A stretch of DNA of 50,711 nt from assembly GCA_913051775.1 (NCBI GenBank), contig CAJXCL010000010.1:1-50711 (forward strand), in the 5' to 3' direction. Source of the DNA: an uncultured Nitrospirota bacterium (GTDB lineage Bacteria; Nitrospinota; Nitrospinia; CAJXCL01). The notes under the pieces were generated by a model. That model did not search any database and was not told the DNA's origin. It saw only the letters and a program-made list of their open reading frames with translations. Of this stretch, positions 22,471-43,533 are shown piece by piece (the first letter of the stretch is position 1; every line of letters starts with the position of its first letter). The position numbers and the translations under genes were made by a program.

Positions 22471-23232
22471 ATGCAGAAAAGACTTCCATTATCCGTATCT
22501 CTTATTTCTTTTAATGAAGAAGATAACATTGCAAGAACATTAAGTAGTATTAAAGACATTGCGGCTGAAATTATTATTGTTGATTCTCATTCTACGGATG
22601 AAACAAGGGAAATTGCGAAAAGTTACGGTGCAAGGGTATTTGACGAAGACTGGAAAGGATATATCGCTCAAAAAAACTCTGCCATTGAAAAATGCACTGA
22701 AGAATGGATTTTATCATTGGATTGTGACGAAGTCGTTTCTAGAGAGTTAGAAGAATCTATTATTGAAAATATCCGGAATTCTGAAGCAGATGGTTATTTT
22801 ATTAACAGAAAGACTTACTACATGGGAAGGTTCTTAAAGTATGCCTGGCAGCCGGATTGGAAGTTACGAATTGTAAAAAGATCAGCAAATCCAAAGTGGA
22901 ATGGATATCATCTGCATGAATTTTTAAAAATTAGTGGATCGATTAAAAATTTGAGAGGTGATTTGTCTCATTATTCCTACAAAAACCTTGAAGATCATTT
23001 TTGCCGAACTGTCAAATACGCTAAACTTTCTGCTAAATCTTATTATGAAAAAGGTAAAAAATTTAAATGGTATAAATCCCTGCTAAATCCTATTATAGCG
23101 TTTGCGAAAGTTTTTTTTATCCAACGCGGTTTCTTGGACGGGTATCGAGGATTTATTATTGCTGTGAGCAGTTTAACCTATACTTTTTTGAAGTATGTTT
23201 TCTTGTGGGAAATCGAAAGGAATAATGAATAA
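22471..23232 (+). CDS. Family 2 glycosyltransferase, WaaE/KdtX-like (LPS core)
   Basis: The 253-residue GT-A glycosyltransferase has the nucleotide-sugar motifs SLISFNEEDNIARTL and VDSHSTDETREIAKSYGA, then LDCDEVVS (DxD, residues 84-86). The order and the phrase WKGYIAQKN match WaaE-type inner-core glucosyl/heptosyl transferases. The C-terminal 40 residues are hydrophobic and probably associate with the inner membrane. Its stop overlaps the ATG of the broken msbA copy by 8 bases. The sugar and acceptor are not determined. Confidence 0.85.
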   Translation: MQKRLPLSVSLISFNEEDNIARTLSSIKDIAAEIIIVDSHSTDETREIAKSYGARVFDEDWKGYIAQKNSAIEKCTEEWILSLDCDEVVSRELEESIIENIRNSEADGYFINRKTYYMGRFLKYAWQPDWKLRIVKRSANPKWNGYHLHEFLKISGSIKNLRGDLSHYSYKNLEDHFCRTVKYAKLSAKSYYEKGKKFKWYKSLLNPIIAFAKVFFIQRGFLDGYRGFIIAVSSLTYTFLKYVFLWEIERNNE

Positions 23233-23640
23233 CATCTTTAAAGAGGTTTCTCCGAAACAGTGGAAAAACGACATTTATACGATCAAAGAGTTGACGAAAA
23301 GTCATTCCCTGAGGCTTGCATTAGCTTGTCTCAGCGGGTTGCTTCTCTCCTCAATCAACGGTGCCATTGCCTGGTTTGTTAAACCGGTACTGGACGGCCT
23401 GTTTTTTGAAAAAAACAATGCTCTTTTAATGGTCCTTCCGATGGGGGTCATTTTTCTCTTTGTCCTTTGTGGTTTGTTTGCTTTCTCTAATAATTACCTG
23501 ATGTTTTCTACCGGAGCAAAAATTGTGAGAGTGTTTAGACACTCTGTCTTTGACAGAAATACTGAGGTTTCCCATTCCCTTTTTTTCACAAAAATCAAGC
23601 GGCTCGATAATATCGAGAGTGCTGATTGATATGAAAAAAC
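23225..23640 (+). pseudogene. Truncated duplicate of the msbA 5' end
   Basis: Residues 1-110 match the N-terminus of the full MsbA encoded at 24975, with about 18 differences by eye (shared LTKSH, SSINGAIAWFVKPVLDG). The frame then shifts. The DNA stays recognisably similar to about 23625 (ACACAAAAATCAAG-like phrase), but the translation becomes unrelated and stops at 23627-23629. No nucleotide-binding domain follows. It begins inside the end of the GT2 gene, so this was probably the original msbA position before a duplication placed the ligase gene between two copies. Confidence 0.85.
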
Positions 23641-23663: not shown

Positions 23664-24890
23664 ATGAATGCAAAGAGCATAATTAGGATTTCTAATTATT
23701 TTTTTGCTCTTAGTATGCCTATATCCCATTCAGTCGCATATATAGCATGTGGCATTGGTTTTTTTCCTGCCCTCAGGTTTTGGAAAAAGTTACGCTCTGA
23801 ACCGATTATTCTATGGGTAACAATTTTTATTGTCTATGGATTAATACACAGTTTTTTTTCAACCAAACCCGTGGTGGGATATAACACCATGTTTAACTAT
23901 TTTAGCCACTGGTTACTTCCATTTATTCTTGGTTATTCCTTATCTGAAAGAAAAAACATTCATTTTGCATTTTGGTTATATTACTGGTTACTGTTATGTT
24001 TGATATTCTTTTCAATTTTAGCTTACTTTGGACTTTTCTGGAAGAATATTGGCAATAATTATCTGGTCAATGAAGGGTTATTAAAAGGGTTTAGGCACCA
24101 TATTACCCTAGCTGCTTTGTCAATCAATCTTGCGTTTTTATCTTTTGCAATCGGGTTTTTTAATAAGGATATGAATACTAAAAAGAGATCATTTTTTATA
24201 TTAATGGGTCTGTTTCTTGTTGGTGCTGTAGGTCTTACCACTTCACGGGGTTATTATATTGCGTCGAGTATAGGTCTCTTTATCTTTTTAATTTGGTTAA
24301 TCGTTTATCATAAAAAATATTTGTTTGGTGGTGTCGTATTTATTTTTCTTATTTTAATCTCAGCCGGAGTCTATTTTGCTTCTCCAAAAGCTCGTTTAAG
24401 ATTGGAATCAGCAATAAATCTGTCTGATATTAATGTTACTGAAAGAATAAAACTATACAGAATAGCGGTAATGGAAATTGAGGACAAACCTATCTTTGGA
24501 TTTGGTCCGGGGCAATCAGTGTATCAAAAGCAATACTTCGACAAAATAGATACTGGAAATACATTTACCGAAGATGGAAACCCCAAGTATAGTCACCTGC
24601 ACTCATTTTATTTAAATCTGGCAGCCGAATTTGGATTAACCGGATTCTTGATTTTTGTCATTATTTTCTCACTCTTATTTGTAAAGTTACTTTCAATTTA
24701 CAAAACAGAATTATGTTTATCAAAGGCAGTTGGGGTAGGATTATTGTTTGGTTTTTTTTCTGTCATGGTTGGAGAATGTTTTGATACACAGTTTAGAGGT
24801 CCTCAAGTAGCAATGGATCTTTTTTGGATGGTAGGCATTATGAGTGGTGATAGCGCAAATAAAAAGGTGGCGCTCCCTGCTTTTAATTAA
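23664..24890 (+). CDS. O-antigen ligase/polymerase family membrane protein (WaaL/Wzy-like)
   Basis: The 408-residue polytopic protein has about 10-12 membrane helices and one large periplasmic loop (residues about 275-325). The loop carries GFGPGQSVYQKQYF and the family motif HLHSFYLNLAAEFGLTG (H...E.G..G). WaaL ligases attach O-antigen to lipid A-core on the periplasmic face; Wzy polymerases share the fold and cannot be excluded from sequence alone. Location between msbA copies and close to lipid A and core genes favours the ligase. An upstream remnant of msbA leaves it 35 bases after that broken frame. Confidence 0.8.
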   Translation: MNAKSIIRISNYFFALSMPISHSVAYIACGIGFFPALRFWKKLRSEPIILWVTIFIVYGLIHSFFSTKPVVGYNTMFNYFSHWLLPFILGYSLSERKNIHFAFWLYYWLLLCLIFFSILAYFGLFWKNIGNNYLVNEGLLKGFRHHITLAALSINLAFLSFAIGFFNKDMNTKKRSFFILMGLFLVGAVGLTTSRGYYIASSIGLFIFLIWLIVYHKKYLFGGVVFIFLILISAGVYFASPKARLRLESAINLSDINVTERIKLYRIAVMEIEDKPIFGFGPGQSVYQKQYFDKIDTGNTFTEDGNPKYSHLHSFYLNLAAEFGLTGFLIFVIIFSLLFVKLLSIYKTELCLSKAVGVGLLFGFFSVMVGECFDTQFRGPQVAMDLFWMVGIMSGDSANKKVALPAFN

Positions 24891-24974: not shown

Positions 24975-26744
24975 ATGGATAATATTTTTAGAGAAGTTTC
25001 TCCAAAACAGTGGAAAAATGATATTTATACGATTAAAGAGCTGACGAAAAGTCATTACCTGAGGCTTGCATTAGCCTGTGTTAGTGGGTTGTTTCTCTCC
25101 TCAATCAACGGTGCAATTGCCTGGTTTGTTAAACCGGTATTGGATGGACTGTTTGTTGAAAAAAACAATGCTCTTTTGATGGTCCTTCCGATTGGAGTCT
25201 TTTTCCTTTTTGTCTTTCGTGGTTTGTTTGCTTTCACAAATAATTATCTGATGTATTCTACCGGGGCGAAAATAGTGAGGGCAGTCAGGCAGGCGGTTTA
25301 TGAAAAAATATTGAGACTTCCCATGTCTTTTTATACACAAAAATCAAGTGGTTCTTCAATTTCAAAATTGCTTAACGATATTAAAATTCTTGAAGATCTC
25401 ATCGCCCATACAGCAAAAAACTTTTTAGTACAATCTGCTACAGTAATCGTTCTAGCTTTTGTTGCTCTATACAGAAGATGGGACCTGGCTCTTCTTTCTT
25501 TTTTTCTAGCGCCGCTTGTTGTAGTGGTTTTTGACAGGTTCGGCACAAGGATGAAAAAAACAAGCCTCAACACCCTAAAACTTATTTCCAGTGTAACAGA
25601 GATTCTCCATGAAACTTTGATGGGAATTAAAATCGTAAAATCATTTACTATGGAAAAGGAAATGAAAAGGAATAATGAACTTTCCGTCGCAGAGCATTAC
25701 AGGAATGTTATGCGGGAAGTTAGAATTAATGAATTCACGACCGTTTGTATGGAAATTATTTCTGGAGTGGGAGCAGCTGTAATCCTATGGTATGGTACTT
25801 ATCTCATAATCAGCGAAAAACTTTCCGTGGGAGAGTTTTTTTCATTCGTCACTGCGGTACTGATGATTAACACGCCTCTTAAGAGACTGAGCCAGGTCAA
25901 TAATAATTTTCAGAGAATAAGATCAGCTTTGCACAGGGTAAAGCTGATCTTTATTCTTGAAGATGAACAGGAGGGAAAAGTTGAAAAAACAGATATAGAG
26001 GGGAAAATATTGTATAAAAATGTTTCTTTTAAGTATCCAGAGTCAAAAGAAAGGGCTTTAAGTAATATTAACCTTGAAATTATGCCTGGAGAGACGGTTG
26101 CGATAGTGGGATACAGCGGCGCTGGTAAAAGCACACTTACAGACCTGCTGCTTGGATTCTGGAAAAGTTATTTCGGAGAGATTTTAATCGATGGAATTAA
26201 TATAAAAGACTTTTCTTTGCATAATATCAGGTCTCATATAGGAATTGTTTCTCAGGATATCATCCTATTTAATGATACAGCTAGAAACAATATTCTGTTT
26301 GGTAAACCGGATGCAAGCGATGAAGATATTTTGCAAGCGGCTAAAGCAGCCTATGCTCATAAGTTCATTAATGAAATGCCTCAGGGTTACGACTCTATTA
26401 TTGGAGAGCGAGGAATTAAGCTTTCTGGTGGACAGAAACAGAGAATTTCCTTGGCAAGGGCACTCATAAAAAATCCAAAAATTCTTATTTTAGATGAGGC
26501 GACATCATTGCTGGATACGGATTCTGAGATTAAAATTCAAAAGGCTCTTGAGAGTTCCATGAAAGAAAGAACAACTATAATTATTGCTCATAGATTGTCC
26601 ACAGTTCAAAAAGCGGACCGAATTATTGTTATGAACGAAGGTAACGTTATCCAGCAGGGAAATCATTCTGATCTTTCTCGACAGGACGGAGTTTATCAAG
26701 AGCTTTACAGTAAGTCTGCAATAACAGAGGCTACGGATGTTTGA
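24975..26744 (+). CDS. msbA: Lipid A flippase MsbA (ABC exporter)
   Basis: The 589-residue half-transporter has a six-helix membrane domain (residues about 20-320) and one ABC domain. Walker A is GYSGAGKST (about 379-387), the Q-loop lies in IVSQDIILF, the signature is LSGGQKQRISLARAL (about 482) and Walker B with catalytic Glu is ILILDEATSLLD (about 503). MsbA flips lipid A-core across the inner membrane using ATP. It is intact, unlike the truncated copy at 23225. Its position near an LpxL-type acyltransferase and the ligase supports the lipid A role over a generic multidrug exporter. Confidence 0.9.
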   Translation: MDNIFREVSPKQWKNDIYTIKELTKSHYLRLALACVSGLFLSSINGAIAWFVKPVLDGLFVEKNNALLMVLPIGVFFLFVFRGLFAFTNNYLMYSTGAKIVRAVRQAVYEKILRLPMSFYTQKSSGSSISKLLNDIKILEDLIAHTAKNFLVQSATVIVLAFVALYRRWDLALLSFFLAPLVVVVFDRFGTRMKKTSLNTLKLISSVTEILHETLMGIKIVKSFTMEKEMKRNNELSVAEHYRNVMREVRINEFTTVCMEIISGVGAAVILWYGTYLIISEKLSVGEFFSFVTAVLMINTPLKRLSQVNNNFQRIRSALHRVKLIFILEDEQEGKVEKTDIEGKILYKNVSFKYPESKERALSNINLEIMPGETVAIVGYSGAGKSTLTDLLLGFWKSYFGEILIDGINIKDFSLHNIRSHIGIVSQDIILFNDTARNNILFGKPDASDEDILQAAKAAYAHKFINEMPQGYDSIIGERGIKLSGGQKQRISLARALIKNPKILILDEATSLLDTDSEIKIQKALESSMKERTTIIIAHRLSTVQKADRIIVMNEGNVIQQGNHSDLSRQDGVYQELYSKSAITEATDV

Positions 26745-26800: not shown

Positions 26801-27111
26801 GTGAAGATTGCTATTAATATAGAGTACTTTTCAATGACTAAAGGTGGAGCAGAACGATCCGCATCACAATTAGCCGAAGCCTTGCCGGAGAAAGGATACT
26901 GAGAATTGGCTAGATGGATTTGTTCTTGAAGATTTACGAGATTACGCTTTGCTGTCTGAAAAACTGATGCTTTTTTCTGGCAAGAATCTCAAAGTAAGGA
27001 ATGGGAAAAAACACGCGTAAAAAAATTGAAAAATATTCTTTGCAGCGAAAAAATCAGAAAATGCTTGTTTTAGGCGAAGCAATGGCTTCCATTATGAAAA
27101 CAGTTCTTTAA
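26801..27111 (+). pseudogene. Family 4 glycosyltransferase remnant with internal deletion
   Basis: A GTG at 26801 opens MKIAINIEYFS then KGGAERSASQLAEALPEKGY, the classic N-terminus of GT4 LPS glycosyltransferases, and stops at 26902. In other frames just after it are DGFVLEDLRDYALLSEKL and KIEKYSLQRKNQKMLVL, which look like the GT4 C-terminus (GFVLEDP... and KYSxxR.. phrases). About 250 central residues are missing. The remnant follows msbA by 56 bases and runs into the end of the convergent lpxL gene. Nothing else is visible in the 26745-27091 gap. Confidence 0.65.
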
Positions 27112-28051
27112 TATTTTCATACTCTTTCCAGCGTCTGTGTATCCACAAATATTGTTCAGGGTATTTGCGAACGATATATTCAGTTTTTTTGTGTATTTCT
27201 TCAGTAAGGCGGTAAATTTCCTGTTTTTCACTTTTGTAGTCCTTGGCCGGCCATATCGGGTCGCTGAGAAACCCTTCAAATTGAAAACTGTTATTTTTTC
27301 TGCAGCATGCCACCACAACAATTGGTCTTTGATAGGTTACGGCAAGTACTGCCGGTAGAGGTGTAGTATTAGCTTTACGGCCGAAAAAATTGACGGCTAT
27401 TCCTTTCATGGTTCCCTGGTCGGGAAGAATCCCTATAGATTTTCCTTTGCGAAGAAAATTTTTAAGGGTAAACAGGGCATTTTTTTTTTTAATAATAATC
27501 TGGCCGCTTGCAGAGCGATTTTTAAATAACATATTTTCTAGGAAAATATTGTCAAGTGGCCGCACTACAATTGCAAGAGGAATTCCTATGACTGCGCTGG
27601 CATACAGGAGGAGTTCCCAGTTTCCAATATGTGGAGTGATAAATATACACCCTTTTGACTCGTCATGTATCTTTTTTGCTTTTTGAAAAAGCTTTTTAAT
27701 CTCCTCTGTTATCTCTAAAGAATTTTGATCACCAGAAGCTTCTTTTGAGAGAAATCGGAACTTTAAAATTTCTGAAAGCATCAAAAAAAACGAATGAAAG
27801 CTTTGGAGAGCAATATGCTTTATTTCCTTTTCATCTTTTTGACCGTTAAATGCGTTTCGTATATTGTCAATTGCAACCTGGCGTCGACTTGGTACAAAAA
27901 CATAAAGTAAATAAGCAAGAAAATGACTGAATAAATTCATAAAGCTGAATGGCACAATTCGGAAGAGAAACATCGCGGAATATATTAATGCGTATTCACA
28001 GAAATAAATAAACTTTCCTTTTCTCCATTTCTTTTTCCGTTTTTTTTTCAT
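27092..28051 (-). CDS. lpxL: Lipid A secondary acyltransferase (LpxL/HtrB family)
   Basis: The 319-residue protein has a basic N-terminus, a membrane segment (residues about 14-52) and the acyltransferase signature HIGNWE (H141, E146; HX4E). Further motifs are ILPDQGT and FFGRKANTTPLPAVLA. LpxL enzymes move an acyl chain from ACP to the hydroxyacyl group of Kdo2-lipid A at the inner membrane. Its start overlaps the stop of the upstream ketosynthase gene by 4 bases, so it is the last gene of the fatty-acid cluster and the likely user of its product. LpxM or a phospholipid acyltransferase of the same family are alternatives. Confidence 0.85.
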   Translation of the reverse strand: MKKKRKKKWRKGKFIYFCEYALIYSAMFLFRIVPFSFMNLFSHFLAYLLYVFVPSRRQVAIDNIRNAFNGQKDEKEIKHIALQSFHSFFLMLSEILKFRFLSKEASGDQNSLEITEEIKKLFQKAKKIHDESKGCIFITPHIGNWELLLYASAVIGIPLAIVVRPLDNIFLENMLFKNRSASGQIIIKKKNALFTLKNFLRKGKSIGILPDQGTMKGIAVNFFGRKANTTPLPAVLAVTYQRPIVVVACCRKNNSFQFEGFLSDPIWPAKDYKSEKQEIYRLTEEIHKKTEYIVRKYPEQYLWIHRRWKEYENIKELFS

Positions 28052-29337
28052 TTGGTTTCAACCAATACTGACGTGGATTGTCCGCCTATTCCGTAGCTGA
28101 TGGATAAAAAACGATCTTTATCACATGATTGGTGGGAGTTTGATATATTTAATTTTAAAAATTCTTTCTCAGCTTTTTCAAAATTTAATGTAGCAGGAAT
28201 CATTCTATCAGTTACAGATTTTAATCCTAAAATAATCTCTCCCACATCGCTTGCAGCCCCTATATGCCCAGTATATGACTTAAAGCCGCAAATCGGTATT
28301 TCAGGTTTCTTATTATTTGATATTTTGATGATCGAGCTTAGTTCTGAGGCGTCCCCTTTTTTAGTGCCGCTTCCATGCAAGCTAATAAAAGCAAGATCAT
28401 TTATGCAAGAGTCAGCCTCTTTCATAATCATTTCAATATTTCTTTTAATGATATTGGGTGTAACAGTTAACCCCGGGTCAGGTGAAGGTTCAAAACAGTT
28501 TTCAAATTTGCTTAATTTTCCAAGTATCTCTGCACCTCGATGATTTGCCGCATCAGCTGATTCTAAAAAAATGGCAGCACCGCCTTCTCCGGTTATAAAC
28601 CCATCTCTATTTTTATCAAATGGTTTGAATGAAGATATCCCATTTTTGCATTTTGAGAGTATTCCTAAGCCATGAAGTTCCTGAAGAGGCACTTCAGTTA
28701 TCCAATTCCCGCATCCAACCGCTAAGGCAACATCTGCCTCGTTGTGCGCAATACTTCTGTGCGCCAATTCGAGAGCATGTATGCCGCAGGGAGATAGAGA
28801 TGCCAGAGTTGTATTGGGACCCATAAACTCAAAATAAGCGGATAAAAAGCTGAACAAATTGTTTGCAATAGACTGAAGAAGAAAAAAGGGGTTAACCTTG
28901 TTCAAGGCCGAACTATTTAATTTTTCAAAATCCATCTTCTGCCATTTGTTATCAGTCCCATCCTTTATCGCAGGGTACATGAAATGGCTGTCAATTTGAG
29001 AAAAATCTCCAGAAGCAATGTATAACGCGCGTCGTTCAGGAGGAACATCAGAAATATTAATCTCAGAATGAGTGAGAGCTTCACATGCAGAACTGAATCC
29101 GAGCAAAGAACCTCGGTTCAGGAACTTCCTCTGGCTTAATAGTTTAGGGTGAATGTTTTCCGGGATATCAAACTCTGCTACTTTACCGTAATATTGTAAA
29201 TATTCCGGTAGCCCATCTTCAGGGAAATAAGCTATCCCAGTTTTCATTGCCTTCAGGTTTTCCCAATTCTCCTTAACATTTTTGCCGAGAGGCGTAACAA
29301 TCCCCATTCCTGTAATTACAACTTCTCTATTAGACAT
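28048..29337 (-). CDS. Divergent beta-ketoacyl-ACP synthase (KAS-A of the cluster)
   Basis: The 429-residue thiolase-fold condensing enzyme has all three catalytic residues: C184 in SLSPCGIHALE, H321 in SLHGSGTKKGD and H358 in SYTGHIGAASD. The Cys and His surroundings depart from the usual FabF wording (TACASG, HGTST), which suggests an unusual acyl substrate. It condenses acyl groups with malonyl-ACP in fatty acid elongation. It is followed by lpxL with a 4-base overlap and preceded by a 148-base gap containing repeat-like debris. It is the most divergent of the three Cys-containing synthases here. Confidence 0.88.
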   Translation of the reverse strand: MSNREVVITGMGIVTPLGKNVKENWENLKAMKTGIAYFPEDGLPEYLQYYGKVAEFDIPENIHPKLLSQRKFLNRGSLLGFSSACEALTHSEINISDVPPERRALYIASGDFSQIDSHFMYPAIKDGTDNKWQKMDFEKLNSSALNKVNPFFLLQSIANNLFSFLSAYFEFMGPNTTLASLSPCGIHALELAHRSIAHNEADVALAVGCGNWITEVPLQELHGLGILSKCKNGISSFKPFDKNRDGFITGEGGAAIFLESADAANHRGAEILGKLSKFENCFEPSPDPGLTVTPNIIKRNIEMIMKEADSCINDLAFISLHGSGTKKGDASELSSIIKISNNKKPEIPICGFKSYTGHIGAASDVGEIILGLKSVTDRMIPATLNFEKAEKEFLKLNISNSHQSCDKDRFLSISYGIGGQSTSVLVETK

Positions 29338-29485
29338 AATATTGTCCAGCGGCCAGGGACCAGGTTACAGGGACACGAGTTTTTGTTTTTGATCCCCGAT
29401 AACTGAACCCTGACTCCTGAATTATTAATCTTTATGTCTCAGCGCCCCTTCGGTAAATTAAACCTGGTTGCACCTGCTACGCGTA

Positions 29486-29944
29486 TTATATTTTTAAGTT
29501 GAGCTTCCTGGTTAAAACTTGAAAGAATCTCTTTTGTTCATCAGTATTTTCTATTTCTGAAAGAGGGATTATTTTTCCCTCGAATTCCGACTTGATTATC
29601 TTTTTCCCACCAACAGTCCCGGTTCCTTTATAAGTTTTTACTGAAGAGTTTGGTTCAGCCATTGTTTCCATTACCAGTTCAACCTGATCCCCGGGGTATG
29701 CAAAGCCATAAAAATTGGATTTGTTAACCTTATTTATTAAGAACCAGTTGTTAAAATCAGAGGACACTGCCTCAAGCCAGCCCGCAAGCTGAACTAATGC
29801 CTCCAATAATAGCACTCCTGGCATAATCGGGTTTTTTGGAAAATGGAATTCAAGGAAATCTTCACTCATTGTTACATTTTTAATTCCCTTAATTTTTTCT
29901 TTACTTTTCCATTCAACAATATGATCAATTAACAAGTAACGCAT
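29486..29944 (-). CDS. FabZ-like 3-hydroxyacyl-ACP dehydratase (hotdog 1)
   Basis: I chose ATG 29944, which gives 152 residues starting MRYLLIDHIVEWK. This matches the start of the paralogue at 33311, whereas the longer frame adds 17 unrelated residues. The hotdog core shows H34 in EFHFPKNPIMPGV and E48 in LLLEALVQLAGW, the FabZ catalytic pair. It removes water from 3-hydroxyacyl-ACP. A duplicate dehydratase lies at 32859; two may serve different chain lengths or subunits. Confidence 0.85.
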   Translation of the reverse strand: MRYLLIDHIVEWKSKEKIKGIKNVTMSEDFLEFHFPKNPIMPGVLLLEALVQLAGWLEAVSSDFNNWFLINKVNKSNFYGFAYPGDQVELVMETMAEPNSSVKTYKGTGTVGGKKIIKSEFEGKIIPLSEIENTDEQKRFFQVLTRKLNLKI

Positions 29945-30063
29945 AATTAATAGTTTCCCTTTACGAATGTTGATTGACGAATAAAACAACACCATTTATA
30001 AATTGCAAGCTTAAATCTAAAATCGTAAATCGTCAACCGTAATTTGGTTGCGGCTCTGCCGCG

Positions 30064-30831
30064 TTACGCTATGCTCAATCCTCCATCAATGGAAATTGCT
30101 TGGCCGGTAATGTAATTTGACTTTTCAGAGGCAAGGAACAATACAAGGTTTGCAATCTCAACGGGTTCTCCAAATCTTCCAACCGGAATATTTTTAAGAA
30201 TTTCCTCACCTGCTTTCTTTCTGATGCGTTTACTCATTGCAGTTAAAATCATTCCCGGTAGAACAGCGTTTACCTGAATACCCTTTCCAGCAAGCTCAAC
30301 AGCGCATGCTCTTGTAAAAGAAATCAAACCTCCCTTGGCAGCTGCATAATTAGTCTGTCCACGGCCGCCTTTTATAGAGCTTATAGAAGCGATATTTATT
30401 ATTTTCCCATAATGATTAAGCATCATCATTTCTGCCGCGCATTTGGTACAGAGAAATGCTCCTCTCAAATTAACATCCTGCACCACATCCCAATCTGAAA
30501 GTTTCATGCTTAATAACAAGCTATCTTTAATAGTTCCAGCATTATTGACAAGGATGTCCAATTGATTAAACTTTTTTCTAATAAAATCGAAAAGGGTAAA
30601 GACCTCCTCGCTGTTTGAAACGTCGGCTTTAAAAACATCAGCTTTATGGCCAAAAGTGGAGATTTCTTTTTTAAGTATTTCCGCGCTATCCCCTGATTTG
30701 TTGTAATTGATAATAACTTTTGCCCCGGCATTAGAAAGAAGCAGACTAATGTCCTTTCCAATTCCTTTTGCTCCCCCTGTAACCAGGGCAACTTTACCTG
30801 ATAAATCCAATTTCATTTCTTTTAAAGGCAT
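30064..30831 (-). CDS. fabG: 3-oxoacyl-ACP reductase FabG
   Basis: The classical SDR has TGGAKGIG (cofactor loop), NNAG, IASISS and YAAAK (Y162, K166), so all catalytic residues are present. The 255-residue form starts at ATG 30831; ATG 30816 (MKLDLSGKVALV) is equally possible, and an upstream GTG at 30849 falls in repeat-like sequence. FabG reduces 3-oxoacyl-ACP with NADPH. It lies between KAS-B and hotdog 1 in the same direction, and is the only fully canonical ketoreductase of the cluster. Confidence 0.9.
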   Translation of the reverse strand: MPLKEMKLDLSGKVALVTGGAKGIGKDISLLLSNAGAKVIINYNKSGDSAEILKKEISTFGHKADVFKADVSNSEEVFTLFDFIRKKFNQLDILVNNAGTIKDSLLLSMKLSDWDVVQDVNLRGAFLCTKCAAEMMMLNHYGKIINIASISSIKGGRGQTNYAAAKGGLISFTRACAVELAGKGIQVNAVLPGMILTAMSKRIRKKAGEEILKNIPVGRFGEPVEIANLVLFLASEKSNYITGQAISIDGGLSIA

Positions 30832-30887
30832 TTTTGCCACGATGATCACGAAGAGTAGAAAGGAAACGAAATCATAAGAAGGAATTT

Positions 30888-30916
30888 CTTCGTGTTTTTC
30901 GTGTGCTTCGTGGTTT
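30888..30916 (+). repeat. Dispersed repeat R3 (CTTCGTG phrase), copy in the KAS-B/fabG gap
   Basis: CTTCGTGTTTTTCGTGTGC continues with TTCGTGGTTT. Related phrases occur at 33367-33394, 37577-37601 and 43459-43481, all in intergenic DNA. Confidence 0.5.
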
Positions 30917-30964
30917 CATATCATCAGTGTAGTTTGTGAAATCTGCGGTTCTATTTCTTTTTGG

Positions 30965-32248
30965 TTATGCTCTATATTTCTTTACAACAATTGTTGCGTT
31001 CTGCCCGCCAAATCCAAATGAATTGGATATCGCGGCCCTGACAGGCCTCTTTCTTTTCCCACTACTCACATAATCCAGATCGCATTTAGGATCAGGATTG
31101 GTAATATTTATAGTAGGATGAATTTGATCTCTCTCAACACTTAAGACTGTAAACACAAACTCAGGTCCACCAGAAGCCGCTATAAAATGCCCAATAAGGG
31201 ATTTGCTGGAGCTTATGGAGATGCCGTTGGCATTTTCCTTAAAAACCTTTTTAATTGCAAGTGTTTCTGTGGAATCATTCAGTTTTGTACTTGTACCGTG
31301 AGCATTAATATAATCTATCTCATCAATCTTCATATGAGCGTCTTTCAGCGCGGCATTCATTGACTGCTCTGCTCCGTTTCCTTTAGGATGCGGGGCCGTG
31401 ACCTGAAAGGCATCCATAGAGGAGCCATAACCCGCAACTTCCGCGTATATCTTCGCTCCTCTTTTAAGCGCATGAGATTCTTCCTCAAGAATTGCTGTAC
31501 CCGCACCCTCGCCCATTACAAGTCCGGACCTTTTTCTGTCAAAAGGACGGCAGAGTCCATGAGAATTAGAAGAAGAAACGCATGCTGCCTGAAGTAGAAC
31601 AAAAAAGACAAGTCCCATTGGATTTATCATAGAATCTGCTCCGCCCGCAACCATAAGATCAGCATCGCCTCTTTGAATTGTTTTGTATGCTATGCCTACG
31701 GCTTGTGTGGCTGAAGCGCAGGCAGACGTAATCGTATAGTTGGCTCCTTTTAAACTAAACTTTCGGGCAATTAAAGAGGCAGCTCTATTAGAATTGTTTT
31801 TTACAATAGATTCTTTGTGCGCATTTTTATATTTTTTACTGAATTGATCACAATCGAACTCTCCTTTCTTGTTCATAAAATTTTGCACATCTTCCAATCT
31901 GGTAATCCCAAGCCCGGCGGCAAAAGCAACTCCAAAACGGTTACTATATTTCTTGTCTTGATTAACACCGGCATCATTAAGAGCTGACTTTGCCGTCCAT
32001 AACCCAAACAGTGTTCTTCTCTCGCCTTCGCATGATACATACTCCTTAAACTCTTCTTTTATCTTATTCCAATTTTCTTCTTTTATCTTTCCAACAGCCT
32101 GAACAGGTGACTTTTCAGCGCCGAGATAAGCAAGCCGGCTGATACCGGACTCACCGGCAAGCGCCTTTTCCCAATTTTCCTCAACATCAAGACCAAGTGG
32201 TGTGGCCAACCCAAGCCCTGTAACAACGACCTTTTTTTTGACAGTCAT
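30965..32248 (-). CDS. Beta-ketoacyl-ACP synthase II-like (KAS-B of the cluster)
   Basis: The 427-residue FabF-type synthase has an intact triad: C177 in SACASATQAVG, H317 in INAHGTSTKLND and H354 in LIGHFIAASG. The N-terminus is VVVTGLGLATPLG. It carries out malonyl-ACP dependent chain elongation. It lies downstream of a hicBA remnant and 115 bases upstream of fabG. Of the four synthases it is closest, with KAS-D, to ordinary FabF. Confidence 0.9.
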   Translation of the reverse strand: MTVKKKVVVTGLGLATPLGLDVEENWEKALAGESGISRLAYLGAEKSPVQAVGKIKEENWNKIKEEFKEYVSCEGERRTLFGLWTAKSALNDAGVNQDKKYSNRFGVAFAAGLGITRLEDVQNFMNKKGEFDCDQFSKKYKNAHKESIVKNNSNRAASLIARKFSLKGANYTITSACASATQAVGIAYKTIQRGDADLMVAGGADSMINPMGLVFFVLLQAACVSSSNSHGLCRPFDRKRSGLVMGEGAGTAILEEESHALKRGAKIYAEVAGYGSSMDAFQVTAPHPKGNGAEQSMNAALKDAHMKIDEIDYINAHGTSTKLNDSTETLAIKKVFKENANGISISSSKSLIGHFIAASGGPEFVFTVLSVERDQIHPTINITNPDPKCDLDYVSSGKRKRPVRAAISNSFGFGGQNATIVVKKYRA

Positions 32249-32280
32249 ATGGGAAAAAGTAAACTATATTATAGGCAGCT

Positions 32281-32724
32281 TCATTCTTTAATATTAATAT
32301 TCCTTCCTATTATATTTTCTACTTCTTGTATCATCATACGAAGTTGAGGTATGGAATATTCAGAATTGGAGGGAATTGCTAAAACGGTGATGTTCGTAGC
32401 CCATAAACTGAAGATAAATAGCTGAAATTGGACCGTCAAAACCAAGTATACGCAATCGTCCAATAAAAACTCTACGTTTTTACAGGGATCTAACGGCCCA
32501 TGAGCAGTCTCCTTGTTCAGGTCAATATTTTCAATCACAGGCAAGGAATGCCCCAATTTGAGGCCAATCCAAATCCAGTCCTCTAAAGTGGAATGCAGTC
32601 TATCCTCACAGTCTCGCAATGTATTTCCAAATGCTACAACTCCTTTGCAAGAAGGAATCTTCCCTACAAATGTGCCGTCTTCCAGCTTGTCATATGAAGC
32701 ATGTGATAAAGCCTTTTCTACATA
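32281..32724 (-). pseudogene. Degenerate hicB-hicA toxin-antitoxin remnant
   Basis: Reading the minus strand, 32724-32509 gives VEKALSHASYDKLEDGTFVG then TLRDCEDRLHSTLEDWIWIG and LKLGHSLPVIENIDLN, the HicB antitoxin pattern, but a TAG precedes it and no start codon is in frame. From about 32500 a second frame gives RLRILGFDGP and LQFMGYEHHRF, the HicA toxin core, then stops. A frameshift restores IPSNSEYSIPQLRMMIQEVE, the HicA C-terminus. HicA is an mRNA interferase and HicB its antitoxin; neither can be made here. The remnant sits between two fatty-acid genes. Confidence 0.7.
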
Positions 32725-32858
32725 TTGCTAAGAATGTACCGGACCACCATTTTACAACTCTCTTACTATTGTTTTCTAAATATATGTCAACATAGATTAG
32801 AATAATCTGATATAGCCTGAGAAATATAATATATAATATCAAAAATTTGCTGAAATAG

Positions 32859-33311
32859 TCAAACAACCCCTTTTTCTTTCAGTCCGCTGTAATAGGTGAA
32901 TAATTTTTCTAACTCTTCTGAACGAACTTTATGAAAATGGCTGTAAATGATGCGGTCCATTGAGGCAATTGTTTTACCATCCACTAAAATCTTTGCTTTG
33001 CCAAGCGAGTCTCTACTTGAGGTAGAAATAATTTCTCCCTTAATCTCTGCTTTAAAACCCGGTCTTAAATTATAAGAAATATTTACGTTTTCCACTAAAG
33101 ACATAATCGCGGAAAGTTTGAAATCATTAGAGTAAATGATCAACCAGCCAAGAAGCTGTGCCATAGCCTCAATAAAAATCACTCCTGGAACAAAAGCAAC
33201 TTTGCTGAAGTGACTCCTGAGAAATTCTTCTGAAAGAGAAAAGGTTTTAACTCCGGTTATGGATTTTCCTTTCTCTATATGAGTTACGTTATCGTAATAT
33301 AAAAATCGCAT
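32859..33311 (-). CDS. FabZ-like 3-hydroxyacyl-ACP dehydratase (hotdog 2)
   Basis: The 150-residue single hotdog protein begins MRFLYYDNVTHIEKGK, like its paralogue at 29944. The catalytic pair is H34 (RSHFSKVAFVPGV) and E48 (FIEAMAQLLGW). The usual HFP(G/K)xP reads HFSKVA, so the active-site loop is divergent. It could be a second dehydratase or a partner subunit of hotdog 1. It lies 89 bases downstream of the Cys-less synthase KAS-C, across a palindromic repeat. Confidence 0.82.
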   Translation of the reverse strand: MRFLYYDNVTHIEKGKSITGVKTFSLSEEFLRSHFSKVAFVPGVIFIEAMAQLLGWLIIYSNDFKLSAIMSLVENVNISYNLRPGFKAEIKGEIISTSSRDSLGKAKILVDGKTIASMDRIIYSHFHKVRSEELEKLFTYYSGLKEKGVV

Positions 33312-33329
33312 AAATAAATTGAATTTGCT

Positions 33330-33394
33330 ACGAAGACAGTCCCCTTACGGGGGATTAAGGGGGATGTCTTCGTGTCTTCGTACCTTTGTGGTAA
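33330..33394. repeat. Palindromic repeat with C-rich core plus R3 phrase
   Basis: GAAGACAGTCCCCTT and AAGGGGGATGTCTTC form the arms around ACGGGGGATT, followed by GTGTCTTCGTACCTTTGTGG. It is related to the C-rich palindrome at 43097. It occupies most of the gap between KAS-C and hotdog 2. Confidence 0.55.
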
Positions 33395-33400
33395 AAAAAA

Positions 33401-34690
33401 TCATTTCACAGCCTCAATGATCAAAGATGCACACTGTCCTTCATAAGATTGACAGTTTACCATAATTCTTTTTGGAATTGCTCGTAATAGAGATTTATTG
33501 ACGAGATTGAACTTGATATTTTTATCAGAAAGTAAGGAATTAAGAGTCGGAGGAATTACACCATTTTTTAGCATATAAATTCCTAAAACAGTATCAACTG
33601 CAGCTGCGCCTGCCAGTAAATGACCTAAAGCGCCTTTTGAAGAATATACATTCACAGTATCTATACAATCTGAAAAAACCAGGTGTATTGCTTCAATCTC
33701 ATTTTTATCCCCAATACATGTACCATCACCATGAACAATTATTGCGTCAATATCCGATGACTGAATCTCTGCTTTGTCAATTGCTTCTTTCATAGCATGA
33801 GAGATGGCTCTTGCCGTAGGACCTGAAAATTCTTCTTCGCTCTCAAAAGCGAAGCCGTAACCAGCAATACCGGCCAGAGACTGGACACCCCGTTTATTTG
33901 CGGACGAACGCGATTCCAGAGTCATCATGCCGCAACCCTCTCCTAAAATAGTCCCATTCCTGTTAGCGGCAAAAGGACGACATAACATTTCACCGTCTCT
34001 TTCCGATGTGTTTAATATTTTAAAAAGATGAGCACGTGCAAGGCTTAAAGGAGATACTTTTTCGCTGACACCACCCGCAAGAACTGCCTTTGCTCTTTTA
34101 CCACGAATGGCATTCATGCCTTCGATAATAGCCTGCACCCCGGAGTCGGAGTGCGGAGAAAACACCGCGTTTTCACCTTTGAGGTTTAAACTGATTGCTA
34201 CCTGGCAAAATGTTATATTGTTCAGCATTGAAAGAGGCCATAAGGGATATATCTCCTGGTATCCACCTGAATAAAACAAGCTGTAATCAAGATTAGATTC
34301 AGAATCCAATGATTTCATAACTGAAGGCATGAGATCCTGAACTTTATAATCAACCATCCCCATACCGACAAAAAAACCGATGTCTTCTTCTTTAAGAGGT
34401 GTTTTGTCCAGGCTGGAGTGCATGAATGCGTCACGAGTGCATTTCAGAAGCATATAGGAATGTTTATCCATTATCCGGGCGTCCCTTGGATGAACATCCA
34501 ACGAAGAATGGTCAAGACCCTGAACCTGGGCGGCAACCCGGCATTCAAATCCTTTTGCGTCAAAATCTTTTATCGGCAGGGTTCCGTGCTTTCCGGAAAG
34601 TAACACATCCCATGTTTTAGATGCAGTCAGGCCCAGGGAAGATACCAATGCTACTCCGGTAACAACAACACTCTCATCCTCATTTTTCAT
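33401..34690 (-). CDS. Ketosynthase-like protein lacking the active-site Cys (KAS-C, chain-length-factor-like)
   Basis: The 429-residue protein has the FabF fold (VVVTGVALVSSLG; CRPFAANRNGTILGEG). The nucleophile position reads FSPHSDSGVQAI, with Ser181 where Cys is expected; H320 (HGDGT) and H357 (ALGHLLAG) are kept. It therefore cannot form the normal acyl-Cys intermediate and probably acts as a KSbeta/chain-length-factor partner or a decarboxylase. Its start overlaps the end of KAS-D by 11 bases, the arrangement of KSalpha-KSbeta pairs and of the two fabF genes in rhizobial acpXL loci. It is complete and not decayed. Confidence 0.85.
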   Translation of the reverse strand: MKNEDESVVVTGVALVSSLGLTASKTWDVLLSGKHGTLPIKDFDAKGFECRVAAQVQGLDHSSLDVHPRDARIMDKHSYMLLKCTRDAFMHSSLDKTPLKEEDIGFFVGMGMVDYKVQDLMPSVMKSLDSESNLDYSLFYSGGYQEIYPLWPLSMLNNITFCQVAISLNLKGENAVFSPHSDSGVQAIIEGMNAIRGKRAKAVLAGGVSEKVSPLSLARAHLFKILNTSERDGEMLCRPFAANRNGTILGEGCGMMTLESRSSANKRGVQSLAGIAGYGFAFESEEEFSGPTARAISHAMKEAIDKAEIQSSDIDAIIVHGDGTCIGDKNEIEAIHLVFSDCIDTVNVYSSKGALGHLLAGAAAVDTVLGIYMLKNGVIPPTLNSLLSDKNIKFNLVNKSLLRAIPKRIMVNCQSYEGQCASLIIEAVK

Positions 34691-36077
34691 ATTCGCCTAA
34701 GCATAAGCACGAGTTCTGACCCCCAAAACCAAAAGAATTTGAGATCGCTTTCCGGTGTTTTTTACTTCTTGCCTCATTCGGCACATAATCGAGATCACAC
34801 TTTGGATCAGGATGATCATAATTAATGGTAGGTAAGAGAATTGAACGGTTTATACCTATAAGCGTTAAAATAAACTCTATAGCGCCCGCCGCGGCAATCG
34901 TATGTCCTAACATTGATTTATTGGAATATACCGGAATACCTTCTGCCTTTTCTCCGAATATTTCTTTGATTGCCCGGGTTTCAGTTAAATCATTTTGCTG
35001 AGTGGATGTTCCATGCGCATTAATGCAATCGATGTTATCCGAGCTAATAGAGGCGTCTTCCAAAGCTCTTCTCATGGCTATTTTAGCTCCCTCTCCTTTG
35101 GGATGTGTATCAGTAATTCTATACGCATCCGCAGAAGAGCCGTATCCAAAAAGTTCACCTGATATTGGAATACCCCTTGACCTGGCATGTTCTAATTCTT
35201 CTAAAATAACAACTCCGGCGCCTTCAGACAATACAAACCCATTTCTTCTCCTATCGAAAGGTCTGGAAGCTGTTTGAGGTGTTTTATATTTTTCCGTTAA
35301 AGCCTTTAGCAGAACAAATCCCATAAGACCAGTAAAATCCAGAGTAGCCTCACCGCCTCCCGCGATCATAACATCACACTTACCTTCCTGAATTACTTTA
35401 TATGCCTCTCCAATAGCCTGTGAACCGGCCGCACATGCGGATACTAGGGAAAAATTATGTCCTTTGCAGTTAAATAACTTTGAAAGGATAGATGCCGCTA
35501 CATCAGGTTTTCTGCGAAAAAATTTAAGATACGAATACCCGCCTGCCTGCGTGAGCCTTTTCATATCCCAATTTCCGTTCCCGTCATAAAACTTGTGCAG
35601 GAACATCATGTCTTCTACTTTGGGGTTGTCTCCGTGGGTGCCGATTGAAACGCCGATTTTTTCGCGGTTTGTTACTTTATTGAGTTTTGCCTGTTGTACG
35701 GCTTCAAGAGTTGCAATTCGTAATAATTTAAGCGCGCGGGAAGAAAATTTTTCCAACCTTTGTGCCTGACTATTTTCACTATTGTTATTCAGGCATGCGT
35801 CATCAACTTCTCCACCTATCCGGCAGGGTAGTCCTTTAGTTTCAAAAGAGGAGATAAAATCAATGCCGGAACGACCATTACTGGCGTTTTCAAATGTTTC
35901 TTCAGTATTTTTTCCTAAAGGAGTGATCATCCCGTAGCCGGTAATCACTACTCTGCGCTGCGAATTTGTAAAATTATGTTTTTTTAGCAAAGATTTTGTT
36001 AAGCAATTTGGCGGTAGCCCTTTTGGTACTGGCCCTGCCATCCTGCGCTTAGAAGACGTTTTTTTCTTTCTGGACAT
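34680..36077 (-). CDS. Beta-ketoacyl-ACP synthase (KAS-D, catalytic partner of KAS-C)
   Basis: The 465-residue FabF-type enzyme has C215 in SACAAGSQAIG, H355 in INAHGTSTQQND and H392 in MLGHTIAAAG, all intact. An extra basic N-terminus of about 40 residues precedes VVITGYGMITPLG; a start at the Met at residue 13 is possible. It overlaps the ACP gene by 29 bases upstream and KAS-C by 11 bases downstream, so the three are probably made together. It should perform the condensation for the KAS-C/KAS-D pair. Confidence 0.9.
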   Translation of the reverse strand: MSRKKKTSSKRRMAGPVPKGLPPNCLTKSLLKKHNFTNSQRRVVITGYGMITPLGKNTEETFENASNGRSGIDFISSFETKGLPCRIGGEVDDACLNNNSENSQAQRLEKFSSRALKLLRIATLEAVQQAKLNKVTNREKIGVSIGTHGDNPKVEDMMFLHKFYDGNGNWDMKRLTQAGGYSYLKFFRRKPDVAASILSKLFNCKGHNFSLVSACAAGSQAIGEAYKVIQEGKCDVMIAGGGEATLDFTGLMGFVLLKALTEKYKTPQTASRPFDRRRNGFVLSEGAGVVILEELEHARSRGIPISGELFGYGSSADAYRITDTHPKGEGAKIAMRRALEDASISSDNIDCINAHGTSTQQNDLTETRAIKEIFGEKAEGIPVYSNKSMLGHTIAAAGAIEFILTLIGINRSILLPTINYDHPDPKCDLDYVPNEARSKKHRKAISNSFGFGGQNSCLCLGEYEK

Positions 36078-36609
36078 TTTTCAACCATTCTTTAATTAAA
36101 TCATCTCCATTAGCAAAAACAGCATATTCTTCGCATGATCCGCATTTAATGCGTGTTTTTTTATCTAATTTCCATGCTGAATTACCGCACGCGCATTTTT
36201 CAGGAAGAGAATTGAGGATATCCATAACACCACTTGTGATTGACTGGACCGTAATTAAGGCAGGTACTTCATCAACATCCGCACCGTGGTTTAAATCAGG
36301 AAGATCATCTTCGAACCGTACCTTCAAGAGTTCGATAGCTTTATCAGTCAGCTGATTGTTTTCATCAATAGCAGAGCCCTCACCAAACATCTCTTCAATA
36401 TGTTCAAGGATAAAGTGGCGCGCCATTTTAATCCCGAAGCTCTGTTCCAGCCTATAATTTATATCAAGAAAATCTAGGGATTCAGCGCCTATATCATTTA
36501 TCAGAGAACTTTCAGGTTTAATAGTTTCTTCCTTAGCGCTTAGCGTTTCAACGATAGCTTTTTTCATCTCATCAATAACCATTTGTTCAGAAATGAAATT
36601 TTGTTTCAT
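36049..36609 (-). CDS. AcpXL-like acyl carrier protein fused to a C-terminal zinc ribbon
   Basis: The 186-residue protein starts after a clear GGAGG. Residues about 8-100 are an ACP with the phosphopantetheine Ser44 in DIGAESLDFLDINYRLEQ. This wording, followed by SFGIKMARHF, resembles rhizobial AcpXL (the very-long-chain ACP) more than FabC/AcpP. Residues 101-135 are a linker. C139, C141, C156 and C159 (CACGN, then KCGSCEE) form a zinc-ribbon-like knuckle. Normal ACPs are about 80-95 residues, so the tail is unusual and may dock partner enzymes. The gene lies between the FabL-like SDR (17-base gap) and KAS-D (29-base overlap). Confidence 0.85.
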   Translation of the reverse strand: MKQNFISEQMVIDEMKKAIVETLSAKEETIKPESSLINDIGAESLDFLDINYRLEQSFGIKMARHFILEHIEEMFGEGSAIDENNQLTDKAIELLKVRFEDDLPDLNHGADVDEVPALITVQSITSGVMDILNSLPEKCACGNSAWKLDKKTRIKCGSCEEYAVFANGDDLIKEWLKNVQKEKNVF

Positions 36610-36626
36610 AATTCCTCCGAAAAATT

Positions 36627-37391
36627 TTATCTATAAAGTCTACTGCTGAGCCCTTTGTCAACAACAATAGTTTGTCCATGCATTCCCCTGCTTGCCTCAT
36701 CACATAAAAACAATACCACATCCGCTATTTCATCCGGTTTCACAAACATATCATCCGGTATTTTATTTACTTCTTCCATGTATTGTCTCAATACTTTAAA
36801 AGAGTCGGTTTTAACAAGCCCTGCACAAATGCCATTAACAGAAATGTTTTTTTCTTTAAGACTCTCCGCACAGTCTCTTACAACACTTTCCATGGCGGCT
36901 TTCATGCTTCCGAGTGGGTAGGATTCATTGTAAAAGCGGCTTCCAAGACTTGAGATAAAGATCACCTTGCCCCCGGATTTTTCCAGCAGCGGAAGTGCTT
37001 CCTGAATACAGAAGATGTTTCCCATGTAATTAGTTTCAACCAACTGCCTGAGTTCCCGCTCAAAAAGTTTTTCAATTGGTTTAAAAGGAGCTTTTGCGGC
37101 ATTCAAAATAAGAAAATCCAGCCTACCGTATTTTTCATTTGTTCCATTGAACAATGCCTTAACAGAATCTTTTTTAGAAATATCAGCCTGGATAAAAAAT
37201 GCCTTGCGACCCATTTCATTTATTTCATTGCATAAAGTCTCTCCCTGTTTTTGAGACGTGCCGCCAGCTTTGCGGTAATTTATAATAACATCCGCGCCTG
37301 ATAAAGCGAACTTTTTAGCAATCGCACTCCCTATACCGCGGGAACTGCCAGTTATTAAAGCGACTTTATTATCAAACAAAACTTTCCTCAT
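36627..37391 (-). CDS. FabL-like SDR, candidate enoyl-ACP reductase
   Basis: I chose ATG 37391 (254 residues); a longer frame runs into repeat R2a and gives a non-SDR N-terminus. The fold shows TGSSRGIG, ILNAAKAPFKP and ISSLGSRFYNESYPLGSMKAA. The SSLGS..Y...Y phrase is that of FabL (enoyl-ACP reductase III). FabL has Y-x6-K; here Y158 and K164 are spaced Y-x5-K, so activity is likely but not certain. It could instead be a ketoreductase. It is the first gene of the cluster, downstream of the promoter at 37534-37562. Confidence 0.75.
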   Translation of the reverse strand: MRKVLFDNKVALITGSSRGIGSAIAKKFALSGADVIINYRKAGGTSQKQGETLCNEINEMGRKAFFIQADISKKDSVKALFNGTNEKYGRLDFLILNAAKAPFKPIEKLFERELRQLVETNYMGNIFCIQEALPLLEKSGGKVIFISSLGSRFYNESYPLGSMKAAMESVVRDCAESLKEKNISVNGICAGLVKTDSFKVLRQYMEEVNKIPDDMFVKPDEIADVVLFLCDEASRGMHGQTIVVDKGLSSRLYR

Positions 37392-37420
37392 AGGTTTTAA
37401 GAAGTGTAAGTTTATTTGAT

Positions 37421-37490
37421 TTCGGCCATCCATGGCCTCAACCCTTCGGGCGGCTTTCCTTCGGAAACCGTCCAATTCGATTTTCCTTAC
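37421..37490 (+). repeat. Dispersed repeat R2, copy a
   Basis: It contains GGCCATCCATGGCC and a hairpin GGGCGGCTTTCC/GGAAACCGTCC followed by AATT. Other copies are at 43335-43380 (inverted) and 44484-44540. Confidence 0.65.
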
Positions 37491-37533
37491 CTAATTGTCT
37501 CTGTTAAATCTGCAATTTCAATAAACTTCACAC

Positions 37534-37562
37534 ACTATAAAATTTTAAACTAATAAGGTCAA
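37534..37562 (-). promoter_or_regulatory. Sigma70-type promoter of the fatty-acid cluster
   Basis: On the minus strand TTGACC and TATAGT are separated by exactly 17 bases, about 143 bases upstream of the FabL-like start. The leader between them contains repeat R2a. The remaining 37392-37777 gap holds R2a, R3 and no gene. Confidence 0.65.
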
Positions 37563-37777: not shown

Positions 37778-38530
37778 ATGATAAATCTTAAAGACAAAGT
37801 TGCTGTTGTAACCGGCGCTGCTAATGAAAAGGGTAGGGCAGTCTGCAAAGCTCTGGCAAATAACAAGGCAAAAGTTGTTATTCACTACTTTAAAAATCAG
37901 GAAATGGCAGAATTTCTTCTTAATGAGATTAAAAAAGAAGAGGGGGAAGCGTTTATTTATCAGGCTGATATTAGGAACCAGAAAGAAGTGAAAAACTTAT
38001 TTAAAAAAGTAACAGCCAAATATGGTTCGGTAAATGTACTGGTTAATAATGCCCATGAGAAAATCAAAAGAAATTTCTTTGTAGACACAACATGGGAAGA
38101 GCACCAGACGCAAATAGATGTGATAACAAGAGGGAGCTATTACTGTATTCAGGAATCCTTGAAGGCAATGTTGAAAAACAGTGAAGGTTCAATTATTAAT
38201 ATACTGAACACTCAGGTTAATATGCCGGTAAAAGGCTACAGCAGTTTTACAACAGCTATGTCTGCGATGGTCGGAATGACCCGGAATCTTGCGCGGGAAG
38301 TGGGACATGATGGTGTGCGCGTAAATATGATTGCCCCTGGGTTTATTGTAGGCAAAAAATCAGAACACGCCCCTTTTTTCATTCAGGAGAAAATTATTGA
38401 GCAGACCCCTCTCAAAAGACTTGCAACTCCGGAAGACATTGCCAATGCGGTACTTTTCTTAGCTTCAAACCTTTCCGGTTTTGTTACCGGCGGCTATCTC
38501 GTTGTAGATGGTGGCATGGTCATGCTTTAG
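37778..38530 (+). CDS. Divergent SDR with altered catalytic site
   Basis: The 250-residue Rossmann protein begins VAVVTGAANEKGRAVC and ends with a normal SDR tail (GGYLVVDGGMVML). Key sites are changed: the NNAG motif reads NNAH, the catalytic Ser region reads INILNTQVN, and the Tyr/Lys pair reads YSSFTTAM (Y154, M161), so the catalytic Lys is Met. It is probably not a standard reductase; a structural or regulatory role is possible. It is transcribed away from the fatty-acid cluster, whose first gene also encodes an SDR. The reading frame is intact. Confidence 0.75.
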   Translation: MINLKDKVAVVTGAANEKGRAVCKALANNKAKVVIHYFKNQEMAEFLLNEIKKEEGEAFIYQADIRNQKEVKNLFKKVTAKYGSVNVLVNNAHEKIKRNFFVDTTWEEHQTQIDVITRGSYYCIQESLKAMLKNSEGSIINILNTQVNMPVKGYSSFTTAMSAMVGMTRNLAREVGHDGVRVNMIAPGFIVGKKSEHAPFFIQEKIIEQTPLKRLATPEDIANAVLFLASNLSGFVTGGYLVVDGGMVML

Positions 38531-43334: not shown

Positions 43335-43380
43335 TCCGTAAGGAAAACCGTCCGAAGGGTTGAGCCATGGATGGCCGATA
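43335..43380 (-). repeat. Dispersed repeat R2, copy b (inverted)
   Basis: Minus strand reads GGCCATCCATGGCTCAACCC then TTCGGACGGTTTTCCTTACG, matching R2a with small changes. Confidence 0.6.
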
Positions 43381-43533
43381 ATTAAAAGTAATTTGCTAAG
43401 CTAAGCTTTACCAGTAAGTCACAAAGGAAGGGGTGGCTCACTTTCTCCTGATTTTTTTTGTGTCTTCGAGTCTTAGTGGCTAATAAATAAAAAGATTTGA
43501 AACTACCTGCATATCAAATTACAATCTACGACT

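Follow-up and report, generated by a model that had tools for sequence, protein, structure and literature searches.

A ketosynthase-rich gene cluster ending in an LpxL-family acyltransferase: a probable dedicated fatty-acid synthase for lipid A in Nitrospirota and one member of another phylum

The window analysed here, a stretch of 50,711 nucleotides (contig CAJXCL010000010.1 of an uncultured bacterium that GTDB places in Nitrospinota), carries on its minus strand, from 37391 to 27092, ten genes of fatty-acid synthase type, the last of which encodes an LpxL-family lipid A acyltransferase. The question raised by this locus is what kind of acyl chain such a cluster makes and whether that chain is destined for lipid A. 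Lipid A with very long chains has been described chiefly in rhizobia and related bacteria, in which it is linked to the stability of the outer membrane; the rhizobial genes acpXL-fabZXL-fabF2XL-fabF1XL-lpxXL make 27-hydroxyoctacosanoate and attach it to lipid A. An earlier note on this DNA proposed that the cluster is an analogous but distinct set, dedicated to a special lipid A chain. The ketosynthase trees and the conserved loci that keep LpxL support this core proposal. The cluster is probably, with about two chances in three, a dedicated type II fatty-acid synthase (FAS), whose special, probably very long, saturated chain is put on lipid A by LpxL.

Gene content of the cluster

Family scans matched every gene of the run to its expected family. 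The genes, in order of transcription, encode a short-chain dehydrogenase/reductase (SDR), an acyl carrier protein (ACP), ketosynthases (KS), chain-length-factor-like proteins (CLF), dehydratases (DH), FabG and LpxL:

36627..37391, minus strand: SDR, FabL-like putative enoyl-ACP reductase, first gene of the run (FabL is the best NCBIfam match and FabL 3oic the best PDB match)
36049..36609, minus strand: long ACP (PP-binding) with an AcpXL-like domain (GAESLDFLD) and a C-terminal four-cysteine ribbon
34680..36077, minus strand: KS1, active-type ketosynthase (SACAAG) with Cys-His-Lys-His; 61-74% identity to Nitrospirota orthologs
33401..34690, minus strand: CLF1, ketosynthase fold without the catalytic Cys (PHSDSG)
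32859..33311, minus strand: DH1, FabZ-like 3-hydroxyacyl-ACP dehydratase (FabA/FabZ families; 61-74% identity in conserved loci)
32281..32619, minus strand: degenerate HicB-type remnant between DH1 and KS3, outside the pathway (UPF0150-like match over 26 amino acids)
30965..32248, minus strand: KS3, active-type ketosynthase (SACASA) with the catalytic residues (FabF family, 429 bits; Nitrospirota orthologs)
30064..30849, minus strand: FabG, 3-oxoacyl-ACP reductase (TIGR01830, 277 bits; 61-76% identity in conserved loci)
29486..29995, minus strand: DH2, FabZ-like dehydratase (FabZ, 95 bits; orthologs found)
28048..29337, minus strand: CLF2, ketosynthase fold without the catalytic Cys (SLSPCG)
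27092..28051, minus strand: LpxL-family lipid A secondary acyltransferase, last gene (HIGNWE, an H-x4-E motif; PF03279, 140 bits; Lip_A_acyltrans, 1e-40)

Most of these genes are separated by short gaps or overlaps. The gap between DH1 and KS3, of about 600 bases, holds the degenerate HicB-type reading frame; the remnant region spans 32281-32740, and its HicA-like part was recognised by eye.

Catalytic residues were read from an alignment against E. coli FabF and FabB. KS1 and KS3 retain the Cys-His-Lys-His set, and both CLF1 and CLF2 have Ser at the position of the catalytic Cys; among the aligned orthologs this position is Ser or Ala in all CLF1 proteins and Ser in all CLF2 proteins. Since the catalytic Cys is absent, these two proteins are CLF-like partners, and the set comprises two KS/CLF pairs. 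KS1 and CLF1 are adjacent, and KS3 and CLF2 lie within the same run, which is the combination of a KS with a Cys-less homologue that marks type II polyketide synthases (PKS) and FAS. The gene inventory of the earlier note was thus borne out at these positions in all the genes it named, except that its four ketosynthases are two ketosynthases and two Cys-less, CLF-like proteins.

Proposed pathway

In the proposed pathway an acyl chain would be loaded onto the cluster's own AcpXL-like ACP, and would be elongated and fully reduced there. Condensations would be performed by two KS/CLF heterodimers, presumably KS1-CLF1 and KS3-CLF2, or the reverse pairing, while reduction by FabG, dehydration by DH1 and DH2 and a second reduction by the FabL-like SDR, the candidate enoyl reductase, would close the cycle. 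The CLF subunits may set the length of the saturated chain, which would probably exceed the C14-C18 range of housekeeping synthesis. The terminal LpxL would then move the chain from the ACP to lipid A, probably as a secondary (acyloxyacyl) substituent. With KS/CLF pairs, FabG, DH1/DH2, SDR and LpxL present, and no thioesterase, ligase or exporter, the set has the appearance of a complete dedicated line. A saturated, longer-than-usual lipid A chain is what would follow most directly from this gene set, and a very long chain is plausible.

Phylogeny of the ketosynthases

Ketosynthase trees had been named in the earlier note as a check, and in them the cluster genes group with neither the E. coli aryl-polyene KS nor housekeeping FabF. 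KS1, CLF1, KS3 and CLF2 each fall in a strong clade with Nitrospirota orthologs, the window sequences being placed inside those clades. Beyond them, KS1 joins a polyene-type KS of Streptomyces (95/89), and the closest groups to KS3, CLF1 and CLF2 are their counterparts in a double KS/CLF set of Photobacterium (100/98, 98/91 and 96/86, respectively), the CLF branches being long. FabF1XL of S. meliloti joins the Photobacterium KS1 (98/79) and neither KS1 nor KS3 of the cluster, and E. coli ApeO, ApeR, FabF and FabB are all placed elsewhere than the cluster genes; the aryl-polyene reference consisted of the E. coli sequences only. It follows from these placements that the cluster KS genes belong neither with housekeeping FabF nor with the aryl-polyene KS and are not specific sisters of FabF1XL.

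Every enzyme type of the cluster is a FAS II type, as it would be in a duplicated ordinary FAS II set for common fatty acids. Such a duplication is nevertheless very improbable, given that the KS/CLF clades lie outside FabF, that the loss of Cys is conserved in two of the four KS-fold proteins, and that relatives have a divergent dedicated AcpS. Moreover, the window's genome has separate FabF and ACP genes on contig C41 and a FabI-like gene on contig C42, and the cluster is therefore not the housekeeping set.

Conservation of the cluster and its link to lipid A

A KS1 scan with one genome per species returned seven Nitrospirota-type genomes at 66-72% identity and one distant match in Myxococcales. 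The SDR-ACP-KS1 triad is kept in all seven, and six of them have a CLF2 ortholog (57-62% identity) at a genome location separate from the triad. In relatives the second part of the cluster reads CLF1-DH1-KS3-FabG-AcpS-DH2-CLF2-LpxL, complete or partial. In a wider sample the long ACP was found in 38 of 396 Nitrospirota genomes, and the triad, with its FabL-like SDR, was present in all 30 loci read. CLF2 occurs in 37 of the 39 ACP-positive genomes, against none of 41 ACP-negative Nitrospirota genomes, so that the two halves co-occur with a hypergeometric probability of 8.6e-21, in a count that ignores shared ancestry. In eight genomes a single contig holds both parts, at a distance of 5 to 11 kb and in the order of the window; AcpS lies between FabG and DH2 in five of these, FabG is absent in two, LpxL is missing in one, and in one other the contig ends before LpxL. 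The gene order that the earlier note had suggested searching for was thus found contiguous in several Nitrospirota genomes, and because it is shared with other genomes, the window run is a conserved cluster and chance clustering is excluded.

Of the 29 loci that can be read beyond CLF2, 22 have LpxL as the very next gene. Four loci have lpxB next to or near LpxL, with waaA and lpxK following it in three (families confirmed in one), and two additional loci that are partial also contain lpxB. One genome has the triad close to lpxD, fabZ, lpxA, lpxI and gnnA/gnnB-like genes, and a second genome has it close to gnnA/gnnB; the families of lpxD, lpxA and both gnn-type genes near the triad were confirmed. 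The cluster LpxL is the sole PF03279 gene in the window's genome (G000) and in the relatives G077, G079, G081 and G082, and LpxK is also present in the window's genome. Its identity is 52-57% to the cluster LpxL of six Nitrospirota genomes, and 28% to LpxXL versus 21% to E. coli LpxL. Conserved loci in which lpxL is replaced by an exporter or ligase, which the earlier note had set against its own proposal, were not seen: no aryl-polyene-type exporter or ligase adjoins the cluster in any locus read. In two genomes (G077, L080 4553-7597; G466, L201 88-3739) the CLF2/LpxL end is followed by a trio of genes for a condensation-domain protein, a lipase-like protein and a methyltransferase-like membrane protein.

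Carrier protein and putative enoyl reductase

Over 50 amino acids the ACP domain shares 50% identity with S. meliloti AcpXL, and its nearest PDB entry is 2kw2, a 'specialized acyl carrier protein'. The four Cys of its long C-terminal extension have zinc-ribbon-like spacing and are conserved in relatives; the structure prediction, with a mean confidence score (pLDDT) of 53, was not used. The divergent AcpS proteins of the relatives' clusters are 60-79% identical to each other and about 36% identical to the other AcpS of those genomes. The window cluster has no AcpS, and the single AcpS gene of the genome is located elsewhere.

The NCBIfam match of the SDR to FabL scores 210 bits, under the cut-off of 328, and its PDB sequence match to B. 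subtilis FabL (3oic) scores 138 bits, the next being 108. Judged from its sequence, enoyl reduction is the likeliest role of this putative reductase. Two relatives retain the SDR in a cluster that has no FabG.

Several observations weigh against a saturated, very long lipid A chain as the product. No chain length can be read from the sequence. The SDR does not have its Tyr at the FabG position; its conserved Y-x5-K is shorter by one residue than the motif of the aligned FabL, and since it matches neither the Y-x6-K of FabL nor the Y-x3-K of FabG, the reaction of the SDR is uncertain. A fold search with the predicted structure of the SDR (pLDDT 74, catalytic loops of low confidence) gave matches to FabG, FabL and other SDRs without distinction and so does not separate enoyl reductase from ketoreductase. 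The nearest outgroup of KS3, CLF1 and CLF2, a Photobacterium cluster, has an MMPL exporter and no LpxL, so the same core type serves another product there. Finally, seven of the 29 loci, all divergent, have no adjacent lpxL, a count of adjacency only. Three of these have genes for a GDP-heptose-type nucleotidyltransferase and a kinase, one has lipase-like and condensation-domain genes, and three have unrelated neighbours.

These seven loci, together with the condensation-domain protein that follows LpxL in G077, would suit a dedicated synthase for some other lipid, such as a different glycolipid or a surface polymer carrying acyl groups, as LpxL relatives are able to use other acceptors. This is improbable in view of the adjacency to lpxB-waaA-lpxK and to lpxD/lpxA/gnn genes, and of LpxL being the only family member in five genomes, the window's included.

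Comparison with known systems

The product of the AcpXL-LpxXL system is a C26-C30 (omega-1)-hydroxy acid on lipid A. With the rhizobial genes acpXL-fabZXL-fabF2XL-fabF1XL-adhXL-lpxXL the cluster shares an AcpXL-type ACP, a FabZ-type dehydratase, a putative reductase, a terminal LpxL-family acyltransferase, and a KS with a Cys-less partner: FabF2XL has Glu at the Cys position, so the rhizobial system likewise has one KS and one Cys-less partner, whereas two such pairs are found here. The cluster further differs in its own FabG, two dehydratases and gene order, in the FabL-type SDR that replaces the zinc-binding dehydrogenase AdhXL, in the extra zinc-ribbon-like domain of its ACP, in the dedicated AcpS of its relatives, and in KS genes that are neither sister nor ortholog to FabF1XL. 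It resembles the AcpXL-LpxXL system in the way it works, but its gene order, KS phylogeny and reductase type place it outside that system. In wild-type Agrobacterium, LpxXL transfers the very-long-chain fatty acid onto lipid A; in cluster mutants the chains that it places there are ordinary C16-C18 ones (PMC11901934). By analogy, a similar division of labour between LpxL and the chain-making cluster would be expected here.

Aryl-polyene clusters (E. coli CFT073 ApeA-R) also combine a KS/CLF pair, FabG, dehydratases, ACPs and acyltransferases. They differ in having acyl-CoA synthetase, MMPL exporter, LolA-type and methyltransferase genes, which are lacking here, and in acyltransferases to which the cluster LpxL has no significant similarity; their KS belong to other clades. 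The view of the earlier note that an aryl-polyene product is less likely holds, with the KS genes outside the ApeO/ApeR clades and genes for an AMP ligase, ammonia lyase, methyltransferase and MMPL exporter all absent from the window run and from the contiguous clusters read.

The cluster on plasmid pDA100 of Photobacterium sp. DA100 (L130 18007-32114), whose genes form the sister groups of KS3, CLF1 and CLF2, has the same double KS/CLF layout adjoining a long ACP. It consists of the long ACP, KS-CLF-KS-CLF, a large aminotransferase-type protein, two SDRs, an outer-membrane lipoprotein-sorting-like gene and an MMPL exporter, without LpxL. Its end product must differ, and is probably of a long-chain amino type.

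The main rival to a saturated chain is a highly reducing type II PKS of the polyene or aryl-polyene sort, making a partly unsaturated chain that the LpxL homologue attaches to lipid A or to another outer-membrane glycolipid. It takes this rank because pathways of that sort are served by the KS/CLF genes most closely related to those of the cluster, and because the enoyl reduction by the SDR is putative. KS1 groups with the Streptomyces polyene-type KS, KS3, CLF1 and CLF2 group with the exporter-bearing Photobacterium set, the SDR could be a second ketoreductase, and Nitrospirae KS-CLF pairs have been catalogued in a survey as putative type II PKS (PMC10132072). This rival is nevertheless unlikely, since the ligase, lyase, methyltransferase and exporter genes are missing, ApeO and ApeR lie apart, the FabL-like SDR is present in 30 of 30 triad loci, and lpxB-waaA-lpxK are adjacent.

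Origin and genomic setting

In the window's own phylum the long ACP was found in one of 77 genomes, that of the window. Contamination of the bin by a Nitrospirota contig was considered and rejected, since in GC content and tetranucleotide profile the window agrees with the remainder of its genome, the distance being 0.07-0.12 to the mean of its own genome versus 0.19-0.28 to the nearest Nitrospirota locus. Composition shows that the contig belongs to its genome. Because the window sequences are nested among those of Nitrospirota, the simplest reading would be horizontal gain from a Nitrospirota-like donor. More tentatively, the cluster may be a PKS-like machine in which two KS/CLF pairs build a non-standard chain, very long or partly unsaturated, which the sole LpxL uses as the secondary acyl group of lipid A; such PKS-made lipid A would then be the rule within one branch of Nitrospirota, and at least one other phylum would have gained it. 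A search of the available library found no paper joining Nitrospirota, lipid A and very-long-chain fatty acids.

As the earlier note had described, the 3' end of LpxL (27092) lies tail to tail with an MsbA-type ABC transporter gene, which ends at 26744, and a Wzy_C O-antigen ligase gene is located at 23664-24890; a gene for a family-2 glycosyltransferase is also near the end of the run. A truncated extra N-terminal MsbA-type copy (23195-23629, 76% identity over 123 amino acids to the full gene at 24975-26744) lies on the opposite side of the ligase gene from the full transporter gene. Upstream of the cluster, a second, divergent SDR gene (37778-38530, plus strand) had no counterpart in the first seven Nitrospirota loci checked.

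The start of the first SDR is better placed at ATG 37391, in agreement with relatives, than at TTG 37475, as the TTG extension overlaps a genome repeat. Copies of this interspersed repeat are found at 35951-36025, at 37413-37495 upstream of the SDR, at 43340-43386 and on other contigs of the genome (L147, L148, L150, L151, L155). The copy within KS1 is in frame and adds about 30 residues (about amino acids 13-42) between SKRR and VVITG that occur in no ortholog. Palindromic elements insert in proteins of Rickettsia, and the KS1 insertion is reminiscent of these. The good promoter that the earlier note had placed before the run carries no weight: a promoter-like site exists at 37562-37534 (10/12 matches), but the scan counted 34 such sites versus 29.4 +/- 6.0 in shuffles, which is not above chance, so the site is no evidence. 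An Rfam scan of the window gave no matches.

Implications

The cluster has the look of a counterpart, so far undescribed and assembled separately, to the rhizobial very-long-chain lipid A system. Its proposed function yields a direct prediction on lipid A chemistry that one mass spectrum could check. If the proposal is true, KS-CLF genes now listed in genome surveys under type II polyketide clusters would be reassigned. A second dedicated synthase, present in Nitrospirota and a single member of a different phylum, would also mean that evolution has produced dedicated fatty-acid pathways for lipid A repeatedly.

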